A stretch of DNA of 64,000 nt, taken from contig JACQYS010000022.1 of assembly GCA_016208105.1 (NCBI GenBank), positions 124,001 through 188,000 on the forward strand. The letters run 5' to 3'. Made by a program: the position numbers and the translations under genes. Of the stretch, positions 10,813 to 20,293 are shown one piece after another; the stretch's first letter is position 1, and each line of letters opens with the position of its first letter. The stretch comes from Desulfovibrio sp. GTDB lineage: Bacteria; Desulfobacterota; Desulfovibrionia; Desulfovibrionales; Desulfovibrionaceae. The notes under the pieces were generated by a model. It did no database searches. It was not told the DNA's origin and saw nothing but the letters and a program-made list of their open reading frames with translations.

Positions 10813-11787
10813 TCACGCGCCGCTTTCCTCGAGCACCTTGCCCAAGGCTTCGATGAGCCTGGGTTCAACCTCGTCAAACGATCCCTGAATGTTGGCTCCG
10901 GCCGCGCACCTGTGCCCGCCTCCGCCAAAAGCGGCAGCCACGGGCTGGATGTTCACCTCTGAGACCGAGCGCAAGGAAAGCTTGAGTGCCCCGGCTCCAT
11001 CCTCGCGTAGCGACTGGGCCATCTTGCAGCCCTTGATACGCAGGACGAAGTTCGTAAGCCCCTCGCAGTCGGCACTTGTGGCCCCAAGCCGGGAAAGCTG
11101 CTCGCTCGTTATGCGAATCACACCCAGCTGTCCATCAAAATAGAGCGCCAGCGAACCGAGAATTTCCGACCAGAGCCTGAACCGGGCCAATGACCACTGG
11201 TTCTGGATGAGCTCATTTATCTTGGCCGTGTCGAGACCCTGACGGATTATGCGCGCGGCCAGTTCCATGCATCTGGGGCTGGTGTTGTCGAAGGCGAAGT
11301 TTCCGGTGTCGGTCACCATGCCCAGGTACACGGCTTCGCCCAAAGGACCATCGAGCTCGAAACCGGCTTCCAGGGCCATGACGCCCACCATCTCCGCCGT
11401 GGAGGACCGGTCCATCTCCACCCAGTTGTGGGCTCCCCATTTGGGGTTGCCGATATGATGGTCGATGACCATGGTGGGATGGGCCGACATGGCGTCCTGA
11501 AGGATCTTTCCTCCCCGTCGTTCGTCTCCGCAATCGAGAGCGATGATCCAGTCGAAACCGTCCGCGGGCAGTTCCGTGAGAATGGGCGAGGGCAGCTGAA
11601 GCCAGGAGAAATGGGCGGGAAGGCCGGAAATATTGTAGAGAACGGCCTGTTTGCCCAGGGCCGTGAGCAGATGCCCCATGGCTGCCATGGCCCCGATGGC
11701 GTCGCCGTCCGGACTGGCGTGGGAGGTCACCAGGAAGCGCGACCCGGCCTTGATGGCCTTTAAAAGGTCATGCATGCGGGTGCCCAT
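10813..11787 (-). CDS. nrnA: DHH/DHHA1 phosphoesterase, NrnA-like oligoribonuclease / pAp phosphatase
   Basis: 324 residues. The metal-binding motifs are SHASPDGDAIG (Asp27, Asp29), LDCGD (about 85-89) and the DHH triplet at 109-111 (VIDHH), followed by YLGMVTDTGNF. The C-terminal DHHA1 domain ends with AFGGGGHRCAAGA. NrnA-type enzymes degrade nanoRNA (2-5 nt) and dephosphorylate pAp; this is known for the family and not shown for this protein. The gene overlaps the 3' end of rbfA by 20 bp, so the two are translationally coupled, consistent with a role in RNA turnover alongside pnp. Confidence 0.93.
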   Translation of the reverse strand: MGTRMHDLLKAIKAGSRFLVTSHASPDGDAIGAMAAMGHLLTALGKQAVLYNISGLPAHFSWLQLPSPILTELPADGFDWIIALDCGDERRGGKILQDAMSAHPTMVIDHHIGNPKWGAHNWVEMDRSSTAEMVGVMALEAGFELDGPLGEAVYLGMVTDTGNFAFDNTSPRCMELAARIIRQGLDTAKINELIQNQWSLARFRLWSEILGSLALYFDGQLGVIRITSEQLSRLGATSADCEGLTNFVLRIKGCKMAQSLREDGAGALKLSLRSVSEVNIQPVAAAFGGGGHRCAAGANIQGSFDEVEPRLIEALGKVLEESGA

Positions 11788-12109
11788 AGACCATGGTTTC
11801 CAAAAAGTCGTCGTGTTCGAAGCGAAGGTCGGGCACGAACTTCATCTTGACCCTGCGCCCCAGGTTGGAGCGAAGGAACCCCTTGGCCTTGTACAGGGCA
11901 TCCTTGACGGCCTTGATGCGTTCTGCGTCGCCCTGCATGGTGAAAAGCACCGTGGCCACGGAGATGTCGGCGTTAAGGCGCACGCCGCTTATGGTCACCA
12001 GCTCCAGGCGCGGGTCCTGAATCTCTTCGGAGAGCATGAGGGCCAGTTCGCGCATGATTTGGTCGGCCATGCGGATGGAGCGGCGGGAAGGGCCTTCTTT
12101 GGTCGTCAT
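11768..12109 (-). CDS. rbfA: 30S ribosome-binding factor RbfA
   Basis: 113 residues from the ATG at 12109, which has AGGA ten bases upstream; an upstream extension to 12166 lacks family similarity. The conserved parts are RMADQIMRELALMLSEEIQDPRL near the start (written here in two pieces: RMADQIMREL and ALMLSEEIQDPRL), the TISGVRLNADISVATV strand and the RRVKMKFVPDLRFEHD block. RbfA binds the 5' end of 16S rRNA during 30S maturation. A putative promoter and a dispersed repeat copy lie directly upstream (12149-12228). Confidence 0.94.
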   Translation of the reverse strand: MTTKEGPSRRSIRMADQIMRELALMLSEEIQDPRLELVTISGVRLNADISVATVLFTMQGDAERIKAVKDALYKAKGFLRSNLGRRVKMKFVPDLRFEHDDFLETMVYGHPHA

Positions 12110-12148
12110 TGTATGTCCTGTCTCATGGCGCTGGAGGTCTGGTTGGGA

Positions 12149-12190
12149 GAGGCCTCCGGCGGCCAAAGGGCTTAAGCCCTTTGGAATCCC
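12149..12190 (+). repeat. Dispersed palindromic repeat, copy R1
   Basis: A 42-bp element with a conserved flank GAGGCCTCCGGCGG, a palindromic core CCAAAGGG-CTTAAG-CCCTTTGG and a GAATCCC end. Related copies are at 40514, 41748, 45447 and 48697. It lies between rbfA and the YlxP gene, both on the minus strand, and would fall in the rbfA leader if the promoter at 12200-12228 is used. Confidence 0.85.
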
Positions 12191-12245: not shown

Positions 12246-12533
12246 TCACTGCCCGATGAGCTCAATGTCGTCATATATAAGTTCCGCTTCGTCGGCGGCA
12301 ACCACCATGTTCAAGGCTTTTTGCAAAAGCCCCTGGGCGTGCTTGCCGTCCGGGCTCACCGTCACGGCGGCGAGAACCAGGGTGTCGTGGCTGTCGTGGC
12401 TGGCTATCTCGCTCACGGCCACGTTGAACTTGTTGCGCAGCTTGGCTTTTAACCGCTGGGCCACGGAGCGCTTGCCCTTGAGGGAGTCGTTTCCGTGCAG
12501 GCGAAATTCCAGGGTGAGCACGCCGATGATCAT
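12246..12533 (-). CDS. DUF503 / YlxP-like protein
   Basis: About 95 residues from the ATG at 12533 (a GTG three codons upstream is equally possible; neither has a clear ribosome-binding site). The family signature is at the start, MIIGVLTLEFRLHGNDSLKG followed by KRSVAQRLKAKLRNKFNVAV, and the protein ends with a short acidic strand. YlxP/DUF503 proteins are commonly encoded in nusA-infB-rbfA operons, and this one sits between infB and rbfA. Family members are linked to ribosome or RNA processes, but no reaction is established. The gene begins after the infB terminator. Confidence 0.85.
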   Translation of the reverse strand: MIIGVLTLEFRLHGNDSLKGKRSVAQRLKAKLRNKFNVAVSEIASHDSHDTLVLAAVTVSPDGKHAQGLLQKALNMVVAADEAELIYDDIELIGQ

Positions 12534-12561
12534 GAGGGTCACCCGGGCGCGGGGGTGCGCA

Positions 12562-12622: not shown

Positions 12623-15529
12623 TTAGTCCAGGGTGTCCTGTTCTTCCACGGTCTCGAAGGCCTCGATCACGTCGCCGACCTTCACGTCGTTGAAGTGCTC
12701 CAGGCCCATGCCGCACTCGTAGCCCTTTGTGACTTCCTTGACGTCGTCCTTGAAACGCTTGAGGCTGGCGAGCTTGCCGGTATAGACAACCACGCCGTCG
12801 CGCAGCAAGCGGATCTGGGCGTTGCGGGTGATCTTGCCGTCCAGGACGCCGCAACCGGCCACCAGGCCGATCTTGGGCACGCTGAAGGTCTGGCGCACCT
12901 CGGCCTGGCCCAGGTACTGCTCCTTGAAGACAGGGGCGAGCATGCCGGACATGGCCGCCTTGATCTCGTCCACCAGCTTGTAGATGATGTCGTAGAACCT
13001 TAAGTCCACGTTCTCGCGTTCGGCGGTTTCCTTGACCTTCACGGACGGGCGGACGTTGAAGCCGATGACGATGGCCCCGGAGGCGGCGGCTAAGAGGACG
13101 TCGGATTCCGTGATGGCGCCGGCGCCGGCGTGGATCATGCGTATCTTGACCTTCTCGCCGGAGAGCTTGTTCAAGGCTTCGGCAATGGCCTCCTGGGAAC
13201 CCTGCACGTCGGCCTTGAGCACCAGCTTGAGTTCCTGGGCCTCGGCCTCGCCGCGCGAAGCCAGGAAGGTCTCCAGGGTGAGCTTGGTGGCCTTGCCAAG
13301 ATCGCGCTCGCGCTGTTTGGTCAGGCGCGTCATCGCGATGCGGCGGGCGACCTTCTCGTCCTCGACGCAGCTGAATGTCTCGCCCGCTTCCGGAACGCCT
13401 TCGAAACCCTGCACCTCGACGGGCATGGCCGGTCCGGCTTCCTTGATCTTTCGGCCCTGGTCGTCGAACAAGGCCCGCACACGCCCCGAGAACAGGCCGC
13501 ACACGAAGGCGTCGCCCTGGTTCAGGGTGCCTTCCTCGATGAGCACGGTGGCCACCGGGCCACGGCCCTTGTCCAGCTTGGCCTCGATGATGTGGCCCTT
13601 GGCGCGCTTGTCCGGGTTGGACTTGAGATCGAGCACCTCGGCCTGCAAAAGGATCATCTCCAGGAGTTCATCCAGGCCGACGCGCTGCTTGGCGGATACG
13701 TTGGCGAAGATGGTCTCTCCGCCCCATTCCTCGGGCACGAGCCCGAGATCGGCCAGTTCGCGTTTCACGCGGTCGGGTTCGGCTCCCGGCTTGTCGATCT
13801 TGTTGACAGCCACAACCATGGGCACGCCGGCTGCTTTGGAGTGGTTGATGGCTTCGCGGGTCTGGTCCATGACGCCGTCGTCTGCGGCCACAACCAGGAC
13901 CACGATGTCCGTCACCTTGGAGCCGCGGGCGCGCATGGCGGTGAAGGCTTCGTGGCCCGGAGTGTCCAGGAAGACCACGTTTCCGCGCGGGGTGGTGACG
14001 TGGTAGGCGCCGATGTGCTGGGTGATGCCGCCAGCCTCGCCCATGACCACGTTGGTGGAACGGATGGCGTCCAAAAGCGACGTCTTGCCATGGTCGACGT
14101 GGCCCATGATGGTGACCACGGGCGGCCTGGGCTTCAAAGATTCCGGAGAGTCCGCTGCTTCGACGTCGATGAACTGCTCTTCGTCAAAGCCGACCTTCTC
14201 CACCTCGTAGCCGAACTCAGCGGCCACGAGCACTGCGGTTTCGTAATCCAGGGACTGGTTGATGGTGGCCATCATGCCCATGGACAAGAGAACCTTCATC
14301 AGATCCTGGGCCTTGAGTCCCATCTGACGGGCCATCTCGGAGACGCGGATGGCGTCCTCCATGCGGATTTTGCGCTTGATGGCCTTCTGGGGCTGGGACT
14401 GGGCCTGGGCCGCCATGATCTGGGCAACCTGATCGCCGCCCTTCTTCTTCTTGGGGTGCTTGCCACCGCGTCCGGTGCGGTCCTGAATGTCGCCCATGCG
14501 CCTCTTGGCGCCGCCGCGGCCGCGGTCGCCGTCGTCCGCGGGAGCCTGGCCGCCGAATTCAACCACACGCTTGTCCTTGCGGCGCTTGCGGTCGTCCGAC
14601 TCCGGAACAGGGGCAGGCTGGGGGCGATCAAAGCCACCGGGTCCGCCGGGGCGTGGGCCGCCGGGACCAGCCGGGCGCGGTCCGCCGGGTCCGCCTGGAC
14701 GCTGTCCGCCGGGTCCGCCGGGGCGCGGTCCGCCGGGACCAGCCGGGCGCGGTCCGCCGGGGCTGGCCGGACGCTGCTGCACAGGGCGGGGCGGTTCGGC
14801 GGTGCGGGGGTCGGGCATGGAAATGATGCGCACCTGCGGCCCGATGGGAACCTCGCGCTTGGGCTTCTTGACCTTCTTCTCCGGTTCCGCGCCTTCAGCG
14901 GGGGCCGGGGCTTCGGCATCAACCGGAGCCTGGGCATCGTCAGACGCGGCGAGTGATTCGTCTTCGTGGACGTGAGCCTCGTGGACAGGCTCGTCCGCGA
15001 TAGGTTCCTCGGGCGCGGCGTGCTCGGCGGATGATTCTTCCTCGTGCCCGGCCTGCTCGGCAGGAGCAAACTCGTGCTCGTGGACCACGGGAAGGTCTTC
15101 GGCTTCGGGCAGGGCCTCCGCTTCGGCTTCGGGCTCGGGCTGGGAAATGATTCTGGCCGGAGGCGTTTGGATGGCGCGCCGGCGGGGCTTGGCCTGGGGG
15201 GCCTGCTCCAAAGCCGGAGAGGCCTCTTCCTCAACCTCGGGGGTGGAGGTGGAAGGAGGCTGCGGGGCTTCGGCCTGAGGCTCCTGCTCTGCATGGGGCG
15301 CGCTTGCGCGGCGGCGGCGGACAACCACTCCCGGCTGGGACTGGCTCTGCACAACTTCGGACTTGGCGAGGCCAGTCTTCATTTTGGAGCGCACCAGTGC
15401 GACCTGGTCGTCCTCCAGTGTGGCCATGTCGCTGGACACACGAATGTCCAGCTCTCTCAGCGCCTGGTAGATGTCCTTGTTGCTGACCCTCAGCTCCTTA
15501 GCGAGGTCTCGGACTCTAAGCTTCGTCAC
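12623..15529 (-). CDS. infB: Translation initiation factor IF-2
   Basis: 968 residues, long for the family because of an extended N-terminal half. Residues 1-50 form the IF2_N domain ([20 protein letters not shown]). Residues about 70-345 are low-complexity: Glu/Ala/Pro-rich, then a Gly/Pro/Arg tract. A second IF2_N region ([20 protein letters not shown]) precedes the G domain with [14 protein letters not shown] (G1), DTPGHEAF (G3) and NKIDKP (G4). The C-terminal half has the beta-barrel and fMet-tRNA binding domains. It places initiator tRNA on the 30S subunit. The GTG start at 15529 overlaps the end of ylxR by 14 bp, so translation is coupled. Confidence 0.98.
14633..14780 (-). repeat. Tandem short repeats inside infB (Gly/Pro/Arg tract)
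   Basis: Imperfect units of about 24 bp encode repeats of GGPRPAGP / GGPRPGGP between the N-terminal region and the G domain of IF-2. The copies differ at few positions (for example GGQRPGGP), so length variation between strains by slippage is likely. Confidence 0.75.
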
Positions 15530-15764
15530 GTCTGCCTTCCCCCTTGCCTTTCCTCACGGCGGCGGCGCGTTTTGGGAATTTGGCCATACAGGCCTCCCCC
15601 GCGCAACAATAGTAGCCCCTTCCGGGCAGGTCAAACGCCTTGTCAGGCGTCCATTCCCCCCGCCACACGTGGCGGGTCAATTCATGTTTGGGAAACCGTT
15701 TGCGACAGACTATGCAGCTGCGCACCGGCCCCTTGAAGTCGTTATTCTCCGGCTTTCCCGTCAT
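15516..15764 (-). CDS. ylxR: YlxR / DUF448 family RNA-binding protein
   Basis: 82 residues from the ATG at 15764, inside the 3' end of nusA. It has the family pattern [17 protein letters not shown] (two Cys in CxxC), a GRGYYCCAG segment near the middle with two more cysteines, and a basic C-terminus. YlxR is a small nucleic-acid binding protein nearly always encoded between nusA and infB, as here. In-frame codons continue upstream to 15845 but overlap the well-conserved end of NusA and look non-coding. There is no strong ribosome-binding site, so coupling to nusA translation is likely. Confidence 0.88.
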
Positions 15765-17082
15765 CCGGGGCCGAAGCCTCATCCTCGGTCGCCTGGGCGG
15801 CCGCGCCATCCTCGCCCTCGGAGGTCGAATCGGACTCTTCCTCAACGGGCTTGGCGGGCAGCAGCAGCCGGATGGCGGAACGCAGGTGCTCTCGTTTCGT
15901 GGGAGTCATGCCTTCGATGCGGTCCAGCTCTTCGTCGGACGCCTCGGCCAGCATGGCCACGGTGTCGAACCCGGCGGACAGGAAGTTCTCCATGTTCATT
16001 TCGGCCACGCTGGCCAGCTGGTCCATGCCCGCGCGGGCGGCATTGAGCTCCGAGTAGCGGGAATCAGTGAAGATATCGATCTTCCAGCCGAGAAGCTTGG
16101 CCGCCAGCTTGACGTTCTGGCCCTTGCGGCCGATGGCCAGGGTGAGCTGGTCGTCGGGCACCACCACTTCCAGGGTCTTCTCGTCCTCGTCCACCATGAT
16201 GCGGGTGATGCGCGCGGGCGAGAGGGCGTTGGCCGCGTAAGTGGCGATTTCCGGATGCCAGACCACGATGTCGATGCGCTCGCCGTGCAGTTCCTGCACG
16301 ATGTTCTGGATGCGCGAGCCGCGAACGCCGACGCACGCGCCCACCGGATCCACGTCGCGGTCCTTGGAGGACACGGCCACCTTGGCCCGGGAGCCCGGGT
16401 CGCGGGCCACGCCCAGGATGCGCACCGTCTGGTCGGACACCTCGGGCACCTCGCGCTTGAACAGGGCGGCCATGTAGTCCGGGTGGGTGCGGGAAATGAT
16501 GATCTGGGGTCCGCGCCCGCTGGGCAGAACCTCGATGATGTAGGCCTGGACGCGGTCGCCGCGCTTGTAGCGCTCGCGCGGGATCTGCTCCTCTTTGGGG
16601 AGCATGGCCTCGGTGCGCCCGAGGTTTATTATCCAGCCGCCACGGTCGCGCCGCTGCACGATGCCGGAAACGATCTCGCCCTTGCGGTCCTTGTATTCCT
16701 CGTAGATGATTTCCTGCTCAGCGTCGCGCATGCGCTGGATGATCACCTGCTTGGCGGACTGGGCGGCGATGCGCCCAAGATCCTCGACCTTGAGCTTGAA
16801 TCCCAGCTCGTCGTCCATCTGCACGTTGGGGTCGACCTTTTGAGCATCTTCCAGGGTGATTTCGGACAGCGGGTCCTCAACTTCGTCCACCACGATCTTG
16901 AACTGGAAGACTTCGATCTCGCCGGCTTCGTCGTTGTAGCTGACCTCGATGTCCATGTGCTCGCCGAACTTGCGGGCGACCGAGGAGCGCACGGCCTCCT
17001 CTAGGGTGTCGATGAGCAAATCGCGGTCGATGCCGCGGTCTTTGCTGATTTGGTCAATAGCCTTGCGAAGCTCCATGCCCAT
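15742..17082 (-). CDS. nusA: Transcription termination/antitermination protein NusA
   Basis: 446 residues. The N-terminal RNA-polymerase binding domain (about 1-130) is followed by an S1 domain (KGEIVSGIVQRRDRGGWIIN), KH1 (RTHPDYMAALFKREVPEV) and KH2 (QLTLAIGRKGQNVKLAAKL), then a short helix-hairpin-helix-like domain (SAGFDTVAMLAEASDEEL) and an acidic Ser/Glu/Ala tail. NusA modulates pausing, termination and antitermination. Upstream GGAGGA gives a well-placed start. An intrinsic terminator sits just before rimP at the head of this operon, so NusA may influence its own expression (inference). Confidence 0.98.
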   Translation of the reverse strand: MGMELRKAIDQISKDRGIDRDLLIDTLEEAVRSSVARKFGEHMDIEVSYNDEAGEIEVFQFKIVVDEVEDPLSEITLEDAQKVDPNVQMDDELGFKLKVEDLGRIAAQSAKQVIIQRMRDAEQEIIYEEYKDRKGEIVSGIVQRRDRGGWIINLGRTEAMLPKEEQIPRERYKRGDRVQAYIIEVLPSGRGPQIIISRTHPDYMAALFKREVPEVSDQTVRILGVARDPGSRAKVAVSSKDRDVDPVGACVGVRGSRIQNIVQELHGERIDIVVWHPEIATYAANALSPARITRIMVDEDEKTLEVVVPDDQLTLAIGRKGQNVKLAAKLLGWKIDIFTDSRYSELNAARAGMDQLASVAEMNMENFLSAGFDTVAMLAEASDEELDRIEGMTPTKREHLRSAIRLLLPAKPVEEESDSTSEGEDGAAAQATEDEASAPDDGKAGE

Positions 17083-17112
17083 GAGGGTCCTCCGGATAGA
17101 GCCTTGCGCGCT

Positions 17113-17655
17113 TTAAGCGCGGGAGGCGTCTTTATCTGCCTTGATGGTCTTTTTGCCCTTGGTCTTGGCCTTGGCCTCCTCGGGCGTCTCAAACACGTAG
17201 ACAAGCTTGGCCTTGGCCACATGGTTCCACGGAAAACTGACGGGAACTCCTTCGCATACGAGCGAAAGTGTCTCGCCGTCCAGGGACGCGAAGGTCCCCT
17301 TGAAACGCTTCCGGCCGTCCAGGGGGTCGGCCAGAGTGACGTCCAGCTCCTGGCCCACGTAGGGGGCGAGCTGGGAAAGCTCGAAAAATTTCCGGTCAAG
17401 GCCGGGCGAGGAGACTTCCAGCTGGAAGGCTCCATGGATGACATCTTCCATGTCCAGGGCCAAGCTGAGTTGCCGGCTCACGCTGGCACAGTGCTCGACA
17501 TCCACGCCGTCCGGACCGTCTATGAATATTCGCACAACGGGGCGGCCCGCTCCGCTGGCGATCTCCATTCCCCATAGAAAAAGGCCGAGGCCTTCCACGT
17601 AGGGAGAGACCAATTCCTTAATCCTGGAGAGCACTTTTACGTTGTCCTGGGTCAT
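17113..17655 (-). CDS. rimP: Ribosome maturation factor RimP
   Basis: 180 residues. It has the two-domain RimP pattern: VSPYVEGLGLFLWGMEI, RIFIDGPDGVDVEHCASVSR and the LEVSSPGLDRKFFE block, then an SH3-like C-terminal domain and a Lys-rich tail. It acts in 30S assembly. The ATG at 17655 has no ribosome-binding site and sits three bases after the T-run of an intrinsic terminator; a GTG at 17634 with AGGA ten bases upstream is an alternative start that would lie wholly downstream of the terminator. First gene of the rimP-nusA-infB group. Confidence 0.93.
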   Translation of the reverse strand: MTQDNVKVLSRIKELVSPYVEGLGLFLWGMEIASGAGRPVVRIFIDGPDGVDVEHCASVSRQLSLALDMEDVIHGAFQLEVSSPGLDRKFFELSQLAPYVGQELDVTLADPLDGRKRFKGTFASLDGETLSLVCEGVPVSFPWNHVAKAKLVYVFETPEEAKAKTKGKKTIKADKDASRA

Positions 17656-17658
17656 ACC

Positions 17659-17690
17659 AAAAAAAAAGTGGACCGAACCGATTGGCCCAC
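17659..17690 (-). terminator. Intrinsic terminator/attenuator between tRNA-Gly and rimP
   Basis: On the minus strand GTGGGCC (17690-17684) pairs with GGTCCAC (17674-17668) including one G-T pair, with a nine-base loop, followed by nine T residues (17667-17659). The T-run ends three bases before the rimP ATG. It terminates the tRNA transcript; read-through would be needed to transcribe rimP-nusA-infB from the same promoter. Confidence 0.82.
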
Positions 17691-17735
17691 CCCTGTAATC
17701 ACCGAAGCATTGGCCTCAGCGTCATGAGGATTTTT

Positions 17736-17811
17736 TGGAGCGGGCGACGAGATTCGAACTCGCGACACCAAGCTTGGGAAGCTTGTACTCTACCAACTGA
17801 GCTACACCCGC
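17736..17811 (-). tRNA. tRNA-Gly (anticodon CCC)
   Basis: A 76-nt minus-strand cloverleaf. The acceptor arms GCGGGTG and CGCCCGC pair, the D arm reads TAGCTCAGTTGGTAGAG, the anticodon stem CAAGC/GCTTG encloses the loop TTCCCAA with anticodon CCC (reads GGG), and the T arm has GAGTTCGAATCTC. CCA is encoded. It stands at the head of the rimP-nusA-infB operon, the position held by the initiator tRNA gene metY in E. coli. Confidence 0.97.
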
Positions 17812-17825
17812 TCGCAAAGTACGTC

Positions 17826-17853
17826 ATATTATGCGTATCCGGGGCCGTGTCAA
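17826..17853 (-). promoter_or_regulatory. Putative sigma-70 promoter for tRNA-Gly
   Basis: On the minus strand a perfect TTGACA (17853-17848) is 16 bases from TAATAT (17831-17826). Transcription would start about 8 bases before the mature tRNA end. Confidence 0.65.
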
Positions 17854-17911
17854 GTGTTTTGCGTGTTTTCCGGGCTTGCGCCCAGGCCTCAGCCTTTGGT
17901 AGCTTGGCTGG

Positions 17912-20293
17912 ATGCGCAAGCAAATCATGCTCCTGGAACGAAACACCTCTTCCCAGAGAGATACCGGGGATTTCTGTCTGGCCGCGTTTCTCATGGTGGC
18001 TCTGGGGGCGGCCTTGCGGTTTTACAACCTGGGCGAGCCTTCCATGTGGGCCGATGAAATGCTCGTGGCGCTCAATGCGTCCAAGGAACCTGCCTACATA
18101 TTCAGCCTGTCTCAAAATGTCGAAGTTCATCCCCCGTACTTCTACTTCCTCTATAAGCTTCTCTTTCATCTTGGTTCATCGGACTTTTGGCTCAGGCTCC
18201 CTTCGGCCGTCTTCGGAACGGCGACGCTCTATTTCGTCTGGAGGGCGGGGGAGCGCCACCTGGAAAGCCGCTTCGCCGCCCTGGCCGCCCTTGGGATGCT
18301 GGCCGCGCACCCCCTGCACATATGGATTTCCCGCCAGGTCCGTCCCTACGCCCTGATAGCGCTCTGCTTCATCCTGGCAGCGGGCTACCTGCTCAGATAT
18401 CTGGAGGAGGGCGATTCCCGCCAGGCCAGGCGCAACCTGCTGGCCTGCCTTCCCATGGTGTTAAGCCACTATGTGGGGCTGTTGGCTTTGGGGACGCAGT
18501 GGGTGGTGGCTGCCGTTGCAGCGCTTTTCCGGGGTGTTCCCTCCCTGGGCTCCGTGGTGGGGTATGGTTGCGGGGCCGTGCTGTGCGCTCTGCCTTCGGC
18601 GTATTTTTTTTGGGAAGCCAAGTTCAACAGGCATGAAGCCTCCATCGAGGCAGGCAAGGGAATTGTCCCGGCGTTGGAAAAAGTGCTTTCCTCGCTTCAG
18701 GGCGTGCTCTCCTTCGGCGCAGACGTCCCGTACGCCTGGGCGGCAATGGCTGGGCTCATGCTCGCTGGAACGCTTTCGCTTCTCTTCAGGCGAGCCTCGG
18801 GTTCTGCACTCATCGCACTCTTCGTGCTTCCCCCGGTCGCCCTGGTGCTGGCCCAGTACGCCAGCCACATGTATGCCGTTCATCTGAGCTTTCTTCTGCC
18901 TGTGGCGGTCTTGCTGGCGGGGGCGGGATTGGAGGGGCTCGCGCCCAGGGCGCTTTGCCGTCCTTGGTTTGCGCTGGTGCTGTGCCTGTGCCTGTCCGGA
19001 ACCTTCGTCAGCCTCAAATCCAAGGACTATTACGAGGCAAAGGGAGTGGTGGCCGCCTGGTGGCACATGGGCTTCTATAAGGATATAGCCCAGATGTTGC
19101 GGCAGTTTTTCACCCCGGCGGACATGATCGCTTTCCACGACCCGGCCCTGTTCGAATCCGTCAACTGGTACGCCTCGCGCCAGGGACCGGGTGTGCCGGC
19201 CAGCCAGCGGCTTAAGCCCGAAGCCCAGACGGTCATGGCTGTCTTCGTTACCAACCATGAGCATTTCGGCCATGCTTTCAAGAATGAATCAGAGTTCAGG
19301 ACGCTTTTCGGACAATCAGCGGTGGTGGCCCACCGTGACAACATGAACCTCTATCAAACCGCGATTGCCAGAAATCCGGACATGGTGTTCGACGGCAAGC
19401 ACGTCTTCGCCGACCTGACCGCGCGCCCCACGGACGTGTATTCCAGGGCGTGGTCGCTTACCGACCTTGGCCTTTTGCCCTATTTCGGATGCTCGCTGTT
19501 TCCCTCCTCCTCTGGCCAGCCCGGCGAAGTGGTCTACAGGATAACCAGAGCCGGCGAGCACTCTCCCATGCGGTTTGACCTCCTGGCGGATTTCGAACTG
19601 GAGGCTCCCGGGAATCTCATACGGATCGAATACAAGTTCGACCAGAGCTCCTGGACCACGGCCCTGGAAGAGAAGAGGCAAAGCAAGGGCACCTGCCGCC
19701 TGATTCGCTTCAACCGGGAAGAGCCGTTCGAGCATTTGTGGCTTCGGGCGGTCCTGGTGGCCGGGGAAAAGGTGGCGACTTCCGAGTGGGGAGCGCGGAC
19801 GCAGGTCCGTTTGAACAGGCTGATGCTCTTTTCGGAACAGGACGGAGCAAGCTTCGGCAGCCGGACTGTACCCTTGAGGGAGTCCGGTCTGGGCTCGCTG
19901 GAGGTGCTGCCGGGAGACGTCTTCATGCGCTGGGGCCTGGGCGAGGTCACCGCGCTGGCCTTTGACCAGGAAGAGGAGAAACCCCTGGTGTTGAGCTACC
20001 GGTTCGTGAGCCGCGTGGCCGGACAAGGCGTCGAAGTGCTGCGGGACGGCCAGCGCCTCGCCCTGTACCAGAATCTGGAGCCTGGGCAGGAGGTGGCGGA
20101 AGTGATGGAGCTTGCCCCCAAGTCCGGCCCCGGCCTCCTGGAGTTCCGCCCTGCGACCTGGAACCACAAGGATGCCTCCTCGACCTTCGCCCCGGATGAT
20201 CCCCGCCAGTTGAGCGTGATGTTCTTTGATCTTTCCCTTGAGTCCCAGGACCATTCCGGTCCTCCGCCTCCGCCCCAGGTGCTTCCGAAGTAG
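17912..20293 (+). CDS. GT39/PMT-like membrane glycosyltransferase
   Basis: 793 residues. The N-terminal about 370 residues contain many membrane helices. The first extracytoplasmic loop holds the acidic pair Asp48-Glu49 (MWADEM) expected for the catalytic site of ArnT/PMT-type transferases, followed by the HPPYFYFLYK motif typical of the family. The C-terminal about 420 residues form a large soluble, probably periplasmic region rich in beta strands with no motif I recognise. Such enzymes move a sugar from a polyprenyl-phosphate donor. It ends 10 bp before the sigma-54 promoter of the flagellar operon; whether it glycosylates flagellar or envelope targets is speculation. Confidence 0.82.
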   Translation: MRKQIMLLERNTSSQRDTGDFCLAAFLMVALGAALRFYNLGEPSMWADEMLVALNASKEPAYIFSLSQNVEVHPPYFYFLYKLLFHLGSSDFWLRLPSAVFGTATLYFVWRAGERHLESRFAALAALGMLAAHPLHIWISRQVRPYALIALCFILAAGYLLRYLEEGDSRQARRNLLACLPMVLSHYVGLLALGTQWVVAAVAALFRGVPSLGSVVGYGCGAVLCALPSAYFFWEAKFNRHEASIEAGKGIVPALEKVLSSLQGVLSFGADVPYAWAAMAGLMLAGTLSLLFRRASGSALIALFVLPPVALVLAQYASHMYAVHLSFLLPVAVLLAGAGLEGLAPRALCRPWFALVLCLCLSGTFVSLKSKDYYEAKGVVAAWWHMGFYKDIAQMLRQFFTPADMIAFHDPALFESVNWYASRQGPGVPASQRLKPEAQTVMAVFVTNHEHFGHAFKNESEFRTLFGQSAVVAHRDNMNLYQTAIARNPDMVFDGKHVFADLTARPTDVYSRAWSLTDLGLLPYFGCSLFPSSSGQPGEVVYRITRAGEHSPMRFDLLADFELEAPGNLIRIEYKFDQSSWTTALEEKRQSKGTCRLIRFNREEPFEHLWLRAVLVAGEKVATSEWGARTQVRLNRLMLFSEQDGASFGSRTVPLRESGLGSLEVLPGDVFMRWGLGEVTALAFDQEEEKPLVLSYRFVSRVAGQGVEVLRDGQRLALYQNLEPGQEVAEVMELAPKSGPGLLEFRPATWNHKDASSTFAPDDPRQLSVMFFDLSLESQDHSGPPPPPQVLPK

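Follow-up and report, generated by a model that had tools for sequence, protein, structure and literature searches.

The rimP-leader, named in 2010 as the most ubiquitous attenuator, is described in the available excerpt of Naville and Gautheret (2010, PMC2965389) as a sequence-conserved intrinsic terminator with a GGGc(...)gCCC stem that lies 4-130 nt from the start codon and thus sometimes extends into the ribosome-binding site. According to the same excerpt, the motif was unseen at other terminators, NusA is the best candidate regulator, and work in E. coli cited there speaks for NusA feedback. In E. coli, metY and the terminators t1 and t2 precede rimP-nusA-infB, metY encodes a minor tRNA that is dispensable for growth, and NusA is said to regulate its own operon (available excerpt of PMC6511841). 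In B. subtilis, NusA autoregulates by stimulating intrinsic termination in the leader of its own gene (available excerpt of PMC12288461, citing Mondal 2016).

The window, by which we mean the whole stretch of 64,000 nucleotides of Desulfovibrio sp. DNA that was analyzed, carries on its minus strand, in this order, a promoter-like site, tRNA-Gly(CCC), an 80-nt leader, rimP and the nusA operon. The genus is Fundidesulfovibrio (Desulfovibrionaceae, Thermodesulfobacteriota); the single named relative identified is F. agrisoli, whose RimP is 72% identical. The features are listed below in window positions.

17826..17853, minus strand: sigma-70-like promoter TTGACA-16-TAATAT, 14 nt upstream of the tRNA
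17736..17811, minus strand: tRNA-Gly(CCC) with encoded CCA (Rfam tRNA model, 66.5 bits)
17692..17729, minus strand: upstream leader hairpin with a CCU/AGG + UGACG/CG-a-UUA base and a variable tip (six-leader alignment)
17668..17690, minus strand: terminator hairpin GUGGGCC-AAUCGGUUC-GGUCCAC of the rimP-leader type (folding; once per genome in the genus)
17659..17667, minus strand: T9 tract, the terminator end (T9 in 6/6 aligned leaders of the genus)
17113..17655, minus strand: rimP, with its ATG at 17655 and no Shine-Dalgarno match (RimP family models)
15742..17082, minus strand: nusA (TIGR01953, 414 bits, above cut-off)
15516..15845, minus strand: ylxR/rnpM-like gene, a listed open reading frame of uncertain start (NF047356, 34 bits, below cut-off)
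12623..15529, minus strand: infB (TIGR00487, 855 bits, above cut-off)
12246-12542, minus strand: open reading frame of 98 amino acids in the infB-rbfA interval (no NCBIfam match)
11768..12166, minus strand: rbfA (TIGR00082, 76 bits, above cut-off)

The promoter, the tRNA-Gly(CCC), the nine-T hairpin and the ATG of rimP had all been reported in a first-pass annotation, and each was found where it had been placed, on the minus strand. The genes that follow rimP are nusA, the ylxR/rnpM-like gene, infB, the 98-amino acid reading frame, rbfA, an nrnA-like gene and truB, and nusA thus lies 3' of the rimP terminator within the same gene cluster, as in a leader of the B. subtilis type. The whole arrangement is common to 7/7 Fundidesulfovibrio genomes examined. 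A divergent reading frame of 793 amino acids on the plus strand (17912-20293), with a weak, below-cut-off match to TIGR03663 (Agl23-like), has its upstream region in common with the tRNA promoter.

The locus resembles the rimP-leader in having an intrinsic terminator in the rimP 5' UTR with a G-rich 5' arm and a C-rich 3' arm; the stem reads GGGCC..GGUCC and is followed by a U-run, with one G-U pair replacing a G-C pair. In contrast to the rimP-leader, the terminator here is preceded by another hairpin and by tRNA-Gly(CCC), and the gap to the ATG is 3 nt. No mention of a tRNA was found in the available excerpt of PMC2965389, and the word Desulfovibrio is absent from its text. The Rfam family RF01770 likewise describes a rimP leader but had no match at the present locus, either at its threshold of 47 bits or at an E value of 10; the tRNA alone passed in the window stretch, and nothing beyond tRNAs passed at nine other rimP loci. 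The comparison with metY that the first-pass annotation had drawn is apt: in the E. coli K-12 sequence, too, the tRNA gene (metY) is followed by terminators and then by rimP, and in both operons a tRNA gene at the head lies between promoter and terminator. The tRNA is the initiator tRNA-Met in E. coli and tRNA-Gly(CCC) here, and the E. coli operon alone has RNase III sites, two terminators and a further promoter, P2, downstream of metY, as far as the available excerpt describes it. Autoregulation of nusA in B. subtilis has, by the excerpt available, been demonstrated experimentally, whereas at the present locus the action of NusA is presumed. The operon here has a tRNA at its head; we know of no such tRNA in the B. 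subtilis nusA leader.

The terminator hairpin with its T-run folds at -12.3 kcal/mol (z -3.2), and the T-run ends 3 nt before the rimP ATG. A general terminator scan allowing loops of 3-8 nt did not list this hairpin, whose loop is 9 nt, and its occurrence was followed with a purpose-written scanner. The family sample comprised 130 genomes, taken from the best matches listed among at least 275 with a RimP match, and 131 loci, two of which (L003 and L031) belong to the same genome and are counted once wherever 130 is the denominator; genus g18 is represented in it by 2 of 76. At a score of 14, a terminator was found upstream of rimP in 131/131 family loci, compared with 4, 2 and 3 of 131 in shuffled sequences, 0/129 in the region 700-1015 nt upstream and 1/131 on the opposite strand. 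At a score of 9 the same controls rose to 11-14, 2 and 9, respectively, and at a score of 17 the terminator was retained in 118/131 loci with all controls at zero. At two loci (L112 and L120) the top-scoring hairpin is a different one and the rimP-type terminator ranks second. Every sampled family genome (130/130) carries a terminator whose 5' arm reads G(U/C)G(G/A), a count that ignores kinship. The phylum sample drew on 106 matched genomes, of which 90 were used (the other 16 being 12 from other families and 4 from the own family), and its counts use the 84 of 90 loci with at least 500 nt upstream. The terminator was found at 77/84 of these other-family loci, at 73/84 with the G(U/C)G(G/A) arm, and no terminator was found at the remaining 7, 5 of which carry the tRNA. 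Loci without a terminator by the scan include three of family f19 (L195, L222, L238) and three of f32 (L193, L206, L209), and tRNA-Gly(CCC) is present at 5/6 of these loci.

Within the genus, the terminator sequence is confined to rimP. The pattern GGTGGRCC-N3-12-GGTCCACTTTT has one match per genome, at rimP, in 7/7 Fundidesulfovibrio genomes, and the motif is therefore absent from their other terminators, as described for the rimP-leader. Across 287 family genomes it has 60 matches in 60 genomes, 56 of them directly upstream of a listed rimP and the other 4 in genomes without a listed rimP place (G152, G157, G160, G168), and the reversed pattern has no match in the same 287 genomes; this test of single use covers the GGUGG(G/A)CC form only. 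The G(U/C)GG arm is present in 77/90 other-family loci, and in the 77 other-family loci scored for compensating stem changes the variable pair is U-A in 43, C-G in 18 and U-G in 16. Among 102 family loci with G(U/C)GG in their best stem, the U faces U or C in 32 and the C faces C or U in 4. Because the U of GUGG is kept in these 32 loci although it faces U or C, the counts, which ignore kinship, suggest that the 5' arm is recognized beyond its role in pairing.

The tRNA is an optional partner of this terminator. A tRNA-Gly(CCC) lies within 600 nt upstream of rimP in 81/130 family genomes, at 5/5 rimP loci from other families of the order, and at 46/84 loci of the phylum sample, representing 23/45 families; it was always Gly(CCC) in the phylum sample, and no other tRNA was detected within the 600 nt in the 130 family genomes. 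In the draft genome, where 44 tRNAs were found, the rimP-linked tRNA-Gly has the sole CCC anticodon, the other glycine tRNAs being Gly(GCC) twice and Gly(UCC) once. The terminator is retained at 49/49 family loci without a detected tRNA and at 36/38 tRNA-less loci of the phylum sample, which speaks for a role in attenuating the operon and against one in merely ending the tRNA transcript. One of the 49 (L076) has an assembly gap, a run of N, inside a tRNA that is possibly intact. In a remnant test 6 of the 49, L076 among them, exceeded all 200 simple shuffles and 43 did not. The tRNA of L014 is obviously wrecked, with a remnant score of 58 compared with 36.5 for the best of 200 shuffles, whereas L019, L046, L022 and L012 exceed all shuffles by a small margin, the match in L022 at the odd distance of 273 nt. 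Most of the 49 loci thus have no recognizable tRNA wreck. Four genomes, G142, G100, G033 and G059 (L261, L263, L264, L265), have a second tRNA-Gly(CCC) clustered with Gly(GCC) and Cys tRNA genes, and in G142 and G033 the rimP-linked tRNA is missing. It is as if the clustered gene were a GCC copy with a changed anticodon that freed the rimP-linked gene to decay. In G211, G200 and G229 the best tRNA matches are Gly(GCC), and G211 and G200 each have one further, weaker match over the full length.

The sole promoter-like site found in the genus lies upstream of the tRNA. TTGACA-16-TAATAT has 1 match in positions 17000-18600 versus 0.5 expected by chance, and both hexamers and the 16-nt spacer are identical in 7/7 Fundidesulfovibrio genomes; family-wide, promoter scoring upstream of the tRNA was no better than in shuffles, with the genus alone excepted. 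The 80 nt from the tRNA to the ATG contain no promoter-like site, the best scores in the genus being 3-7 of 12, and a promoter of its own for rimP was rejected, as none scored within this gap.

The leader between tRNA and rimP is structured. In six leaders of the genus the upstream hairpin directly abuts the terminator and its base is nearly invariant, and at its tip 3 pairs are doubly changed and 2 fail to pair in one or two of the sequences. Antitermination by pairing of AGGCCU after the tRNA with GGGCCU of the terminator was considered and rejected; the two look complementary in several genera, but AGGCCU is variable among g33 leaders and missing from those of Fundidesulfovibrio. GGUUC occurs between the tRNA end and the U-tract in 46/81 tRNA-bearing family leaders (shuffle mean 10.9, maximum 20, kinship ignored), and in Fundidesulfovibrio it is positioned in the terminator loop. 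Leaders without the tRNA often carry ACAUCCUG about 30 nt upstream of a GGGUGGCC terminator arm, as seen in L040, L050, L061 and others of g23 and also in L104, L108 and L125, and ACAUCCUG may be a second conserved element.

The ATG of rimP follows the T-run by 3 nt in 7/7 Fundidesulfovibrio genomes, whereas at least 11 nt separate the two in the sampled loci of 33 other genera, with start codons assigned mechanically. The absence of a ribosome-binding site at this ATG, as claimed before, was borne out, with no Shine-Dalgarno match in 7/7 genomes of the genus. The mechanical test was also negative at 54/123 other family loci, and the missing Shine-Dalgarno sequence is therefore not special by itself; the special feature of the start in this genus is the 3-nt gap alone. 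U-rich tracts are sites for ribosomal protein S1. From the conservation of the start, translation of rimP probably begins at the ATG with no Shine-Dalgarno sequence and with the U-tract just upstream.

The first-pass annotation had also proposed that rimP might start at the GTG at 17634. A start there, or at the TTG of codon 15, would make the terminator-adjacent ATG irrelevant; AGGA is found about 10 nt upstream of the GTG, and the RimP family models match from about residues 5-14 onward. However, among 6 species compared at the rimP start, the GTG is replaced by GAA, GAA and AAA in 3 (L005, L006 and L007) and the TTG is missing in 1, and the ATG is present in 7/7 genomes of the genus, which makes such a start very unlikely. 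The hairpin could also be a mere 3'-end terminator of the tRNA gene, with rimP transcribed from another promoter. Terminators downstream of tRNA genes are ordinary, and this hairpin is strong and carries nine T. We consider this distinctly unlikely, as the hairpin is kept at all 49 sampled family loci lacking a detected tRNA, within the genus its sequence occurs nowhere but at rimP, and the remaining 80 nt have no promoter-like site and are occupied by conserved hairpins.

A switch made of RNA alone, in which the upstream hairpin and the terminator compete by way of two registers, AUCCU/GGGGU in the nascent RNA and CCU/AGG as soon as the terminator has formed, and a ligand or the ribosome decides, would fit the shifted AUCCU/GGGGU register adopted in 6/6 genus leaders when the nascent RNA is folded up to the 5' arm of the terminator. 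The three doubly changed pairs at the hairpin tip would fit as well, as would genus g37, where 12/23 leader pairs are doubly changed with both hairpins counted. The two hairpins, however, overlap by only about 3 bases and coexist in the fold of the full leader, and covariation contributes little within the genus (-1.14 kcal/mol). Doubly changed pairs number two in g23 and none in g33, g24, g39 and g4 (g13, g36 and g17, with too few different leaders, were left out of this folding), and the available excerpt of PMC2965389 reports that an antiterminator was not seen for the general rimP-leader. A switch of this kind is therefore rather unlikely.

We consider it highly probable that the hairpin is a transcription attenuator of the rimP-leader type heading a tRNA-Gly(CCC)-rimP-nusA-infB transcription unit. 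The anatomy, its conservation, the rimP-only terminator sequence, its retention without the tRNA and the lack of a promoter-like site after the tRNA in this genus are direct observations. The proposal of the first-pass annotation that the hairpin is an attenuator and that rimP-nusA-infB is transcribed by read-through gains indirect support, because no promoter-like site lies between the tRNA and the ATG and the terminator is kept at the tRNA-less loci. We infer termination, partial read-through and an action of NusA at the rimP leader. RNA polymerase would start at the single promoter upstream of the tRNA, transcribe the tRNA first and then reach the dedicated terminator three bases upstream of rimP. 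Most transcripts would probably stop there and yield the tRNA, and the fraction reading through would be the rimP-nusA-infB mRNA, with the terminator setting the share of mRNA. NusA, encoded in the operon, would most likely increase termination at this site and thereby limit its own synthesis, and by analogy with the known systems such feedback on the rimP operon is plausible. The T9 hairpin could be so strong that nearly all transcripts end, in which case antitermination or an unseen promoter would be needed. The 7 other-family loci at which no terminator was found, 5 of them bearing the tRNA, also count against the attenuator, as does the family-wide promoter scoring upstream of the tRNA. 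In B. subtilis, NusA dependence is reportedly tied to weak terminators. The rimP terminator is strong, unlike those NusA-dependent terminators, and this difference speaks against the NusA step.

Searches of the open-licence literature found no tRNA-Gly-headed rimP arrangement, no rimP-leader in sulfate reducers, and no leader of Desulfovibrio or Geobacter or tRNA-mRNA nusA unit of this kind; PMC8060035 contains none of the terms looked for. The kind of attenuator is already known from the rimP-leader, from B. subtilis NusA autoregulation and from E. coli metY-rimP, and what looks new is its pairing with one tRNA across much of the phylum. Within that literature, and as far as it was searched, the tRNA-Gly(CCC) head, the structured upstream hairpin and, in Fundidesulfovibrio only, the 3-nt gap from T-run to start are new.

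In a sulfate reducer, a tRNA gene and a built-in stop signal thus precede genes whose products are core factors of transcription and translation. The loci in which the tRNA is intact, wrecked or absent form a natural series with the terminator constant, indicating that the terminator serves the operon. The conservation of the 5' arm opens to direct testing the old question of what NusA recognizes in the leader of its own gene. Tentatively, the tRNA-Gly(CCC)-headed attenuator of the nusA operon may be a phylum-wide device whose conserved GGUGG arm is read by a protein, NusA being the likeliest candidate, that sets the ratio of tRNA to mRNA, with the U-tract in Fundidesulfovibrio doubling as a ribosome landing site for rimP free of a Shine-Dalgarno sequence. 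If this is true, a single element in Fundidesulfovibrio would gate both the transcription and the translation of rimP.
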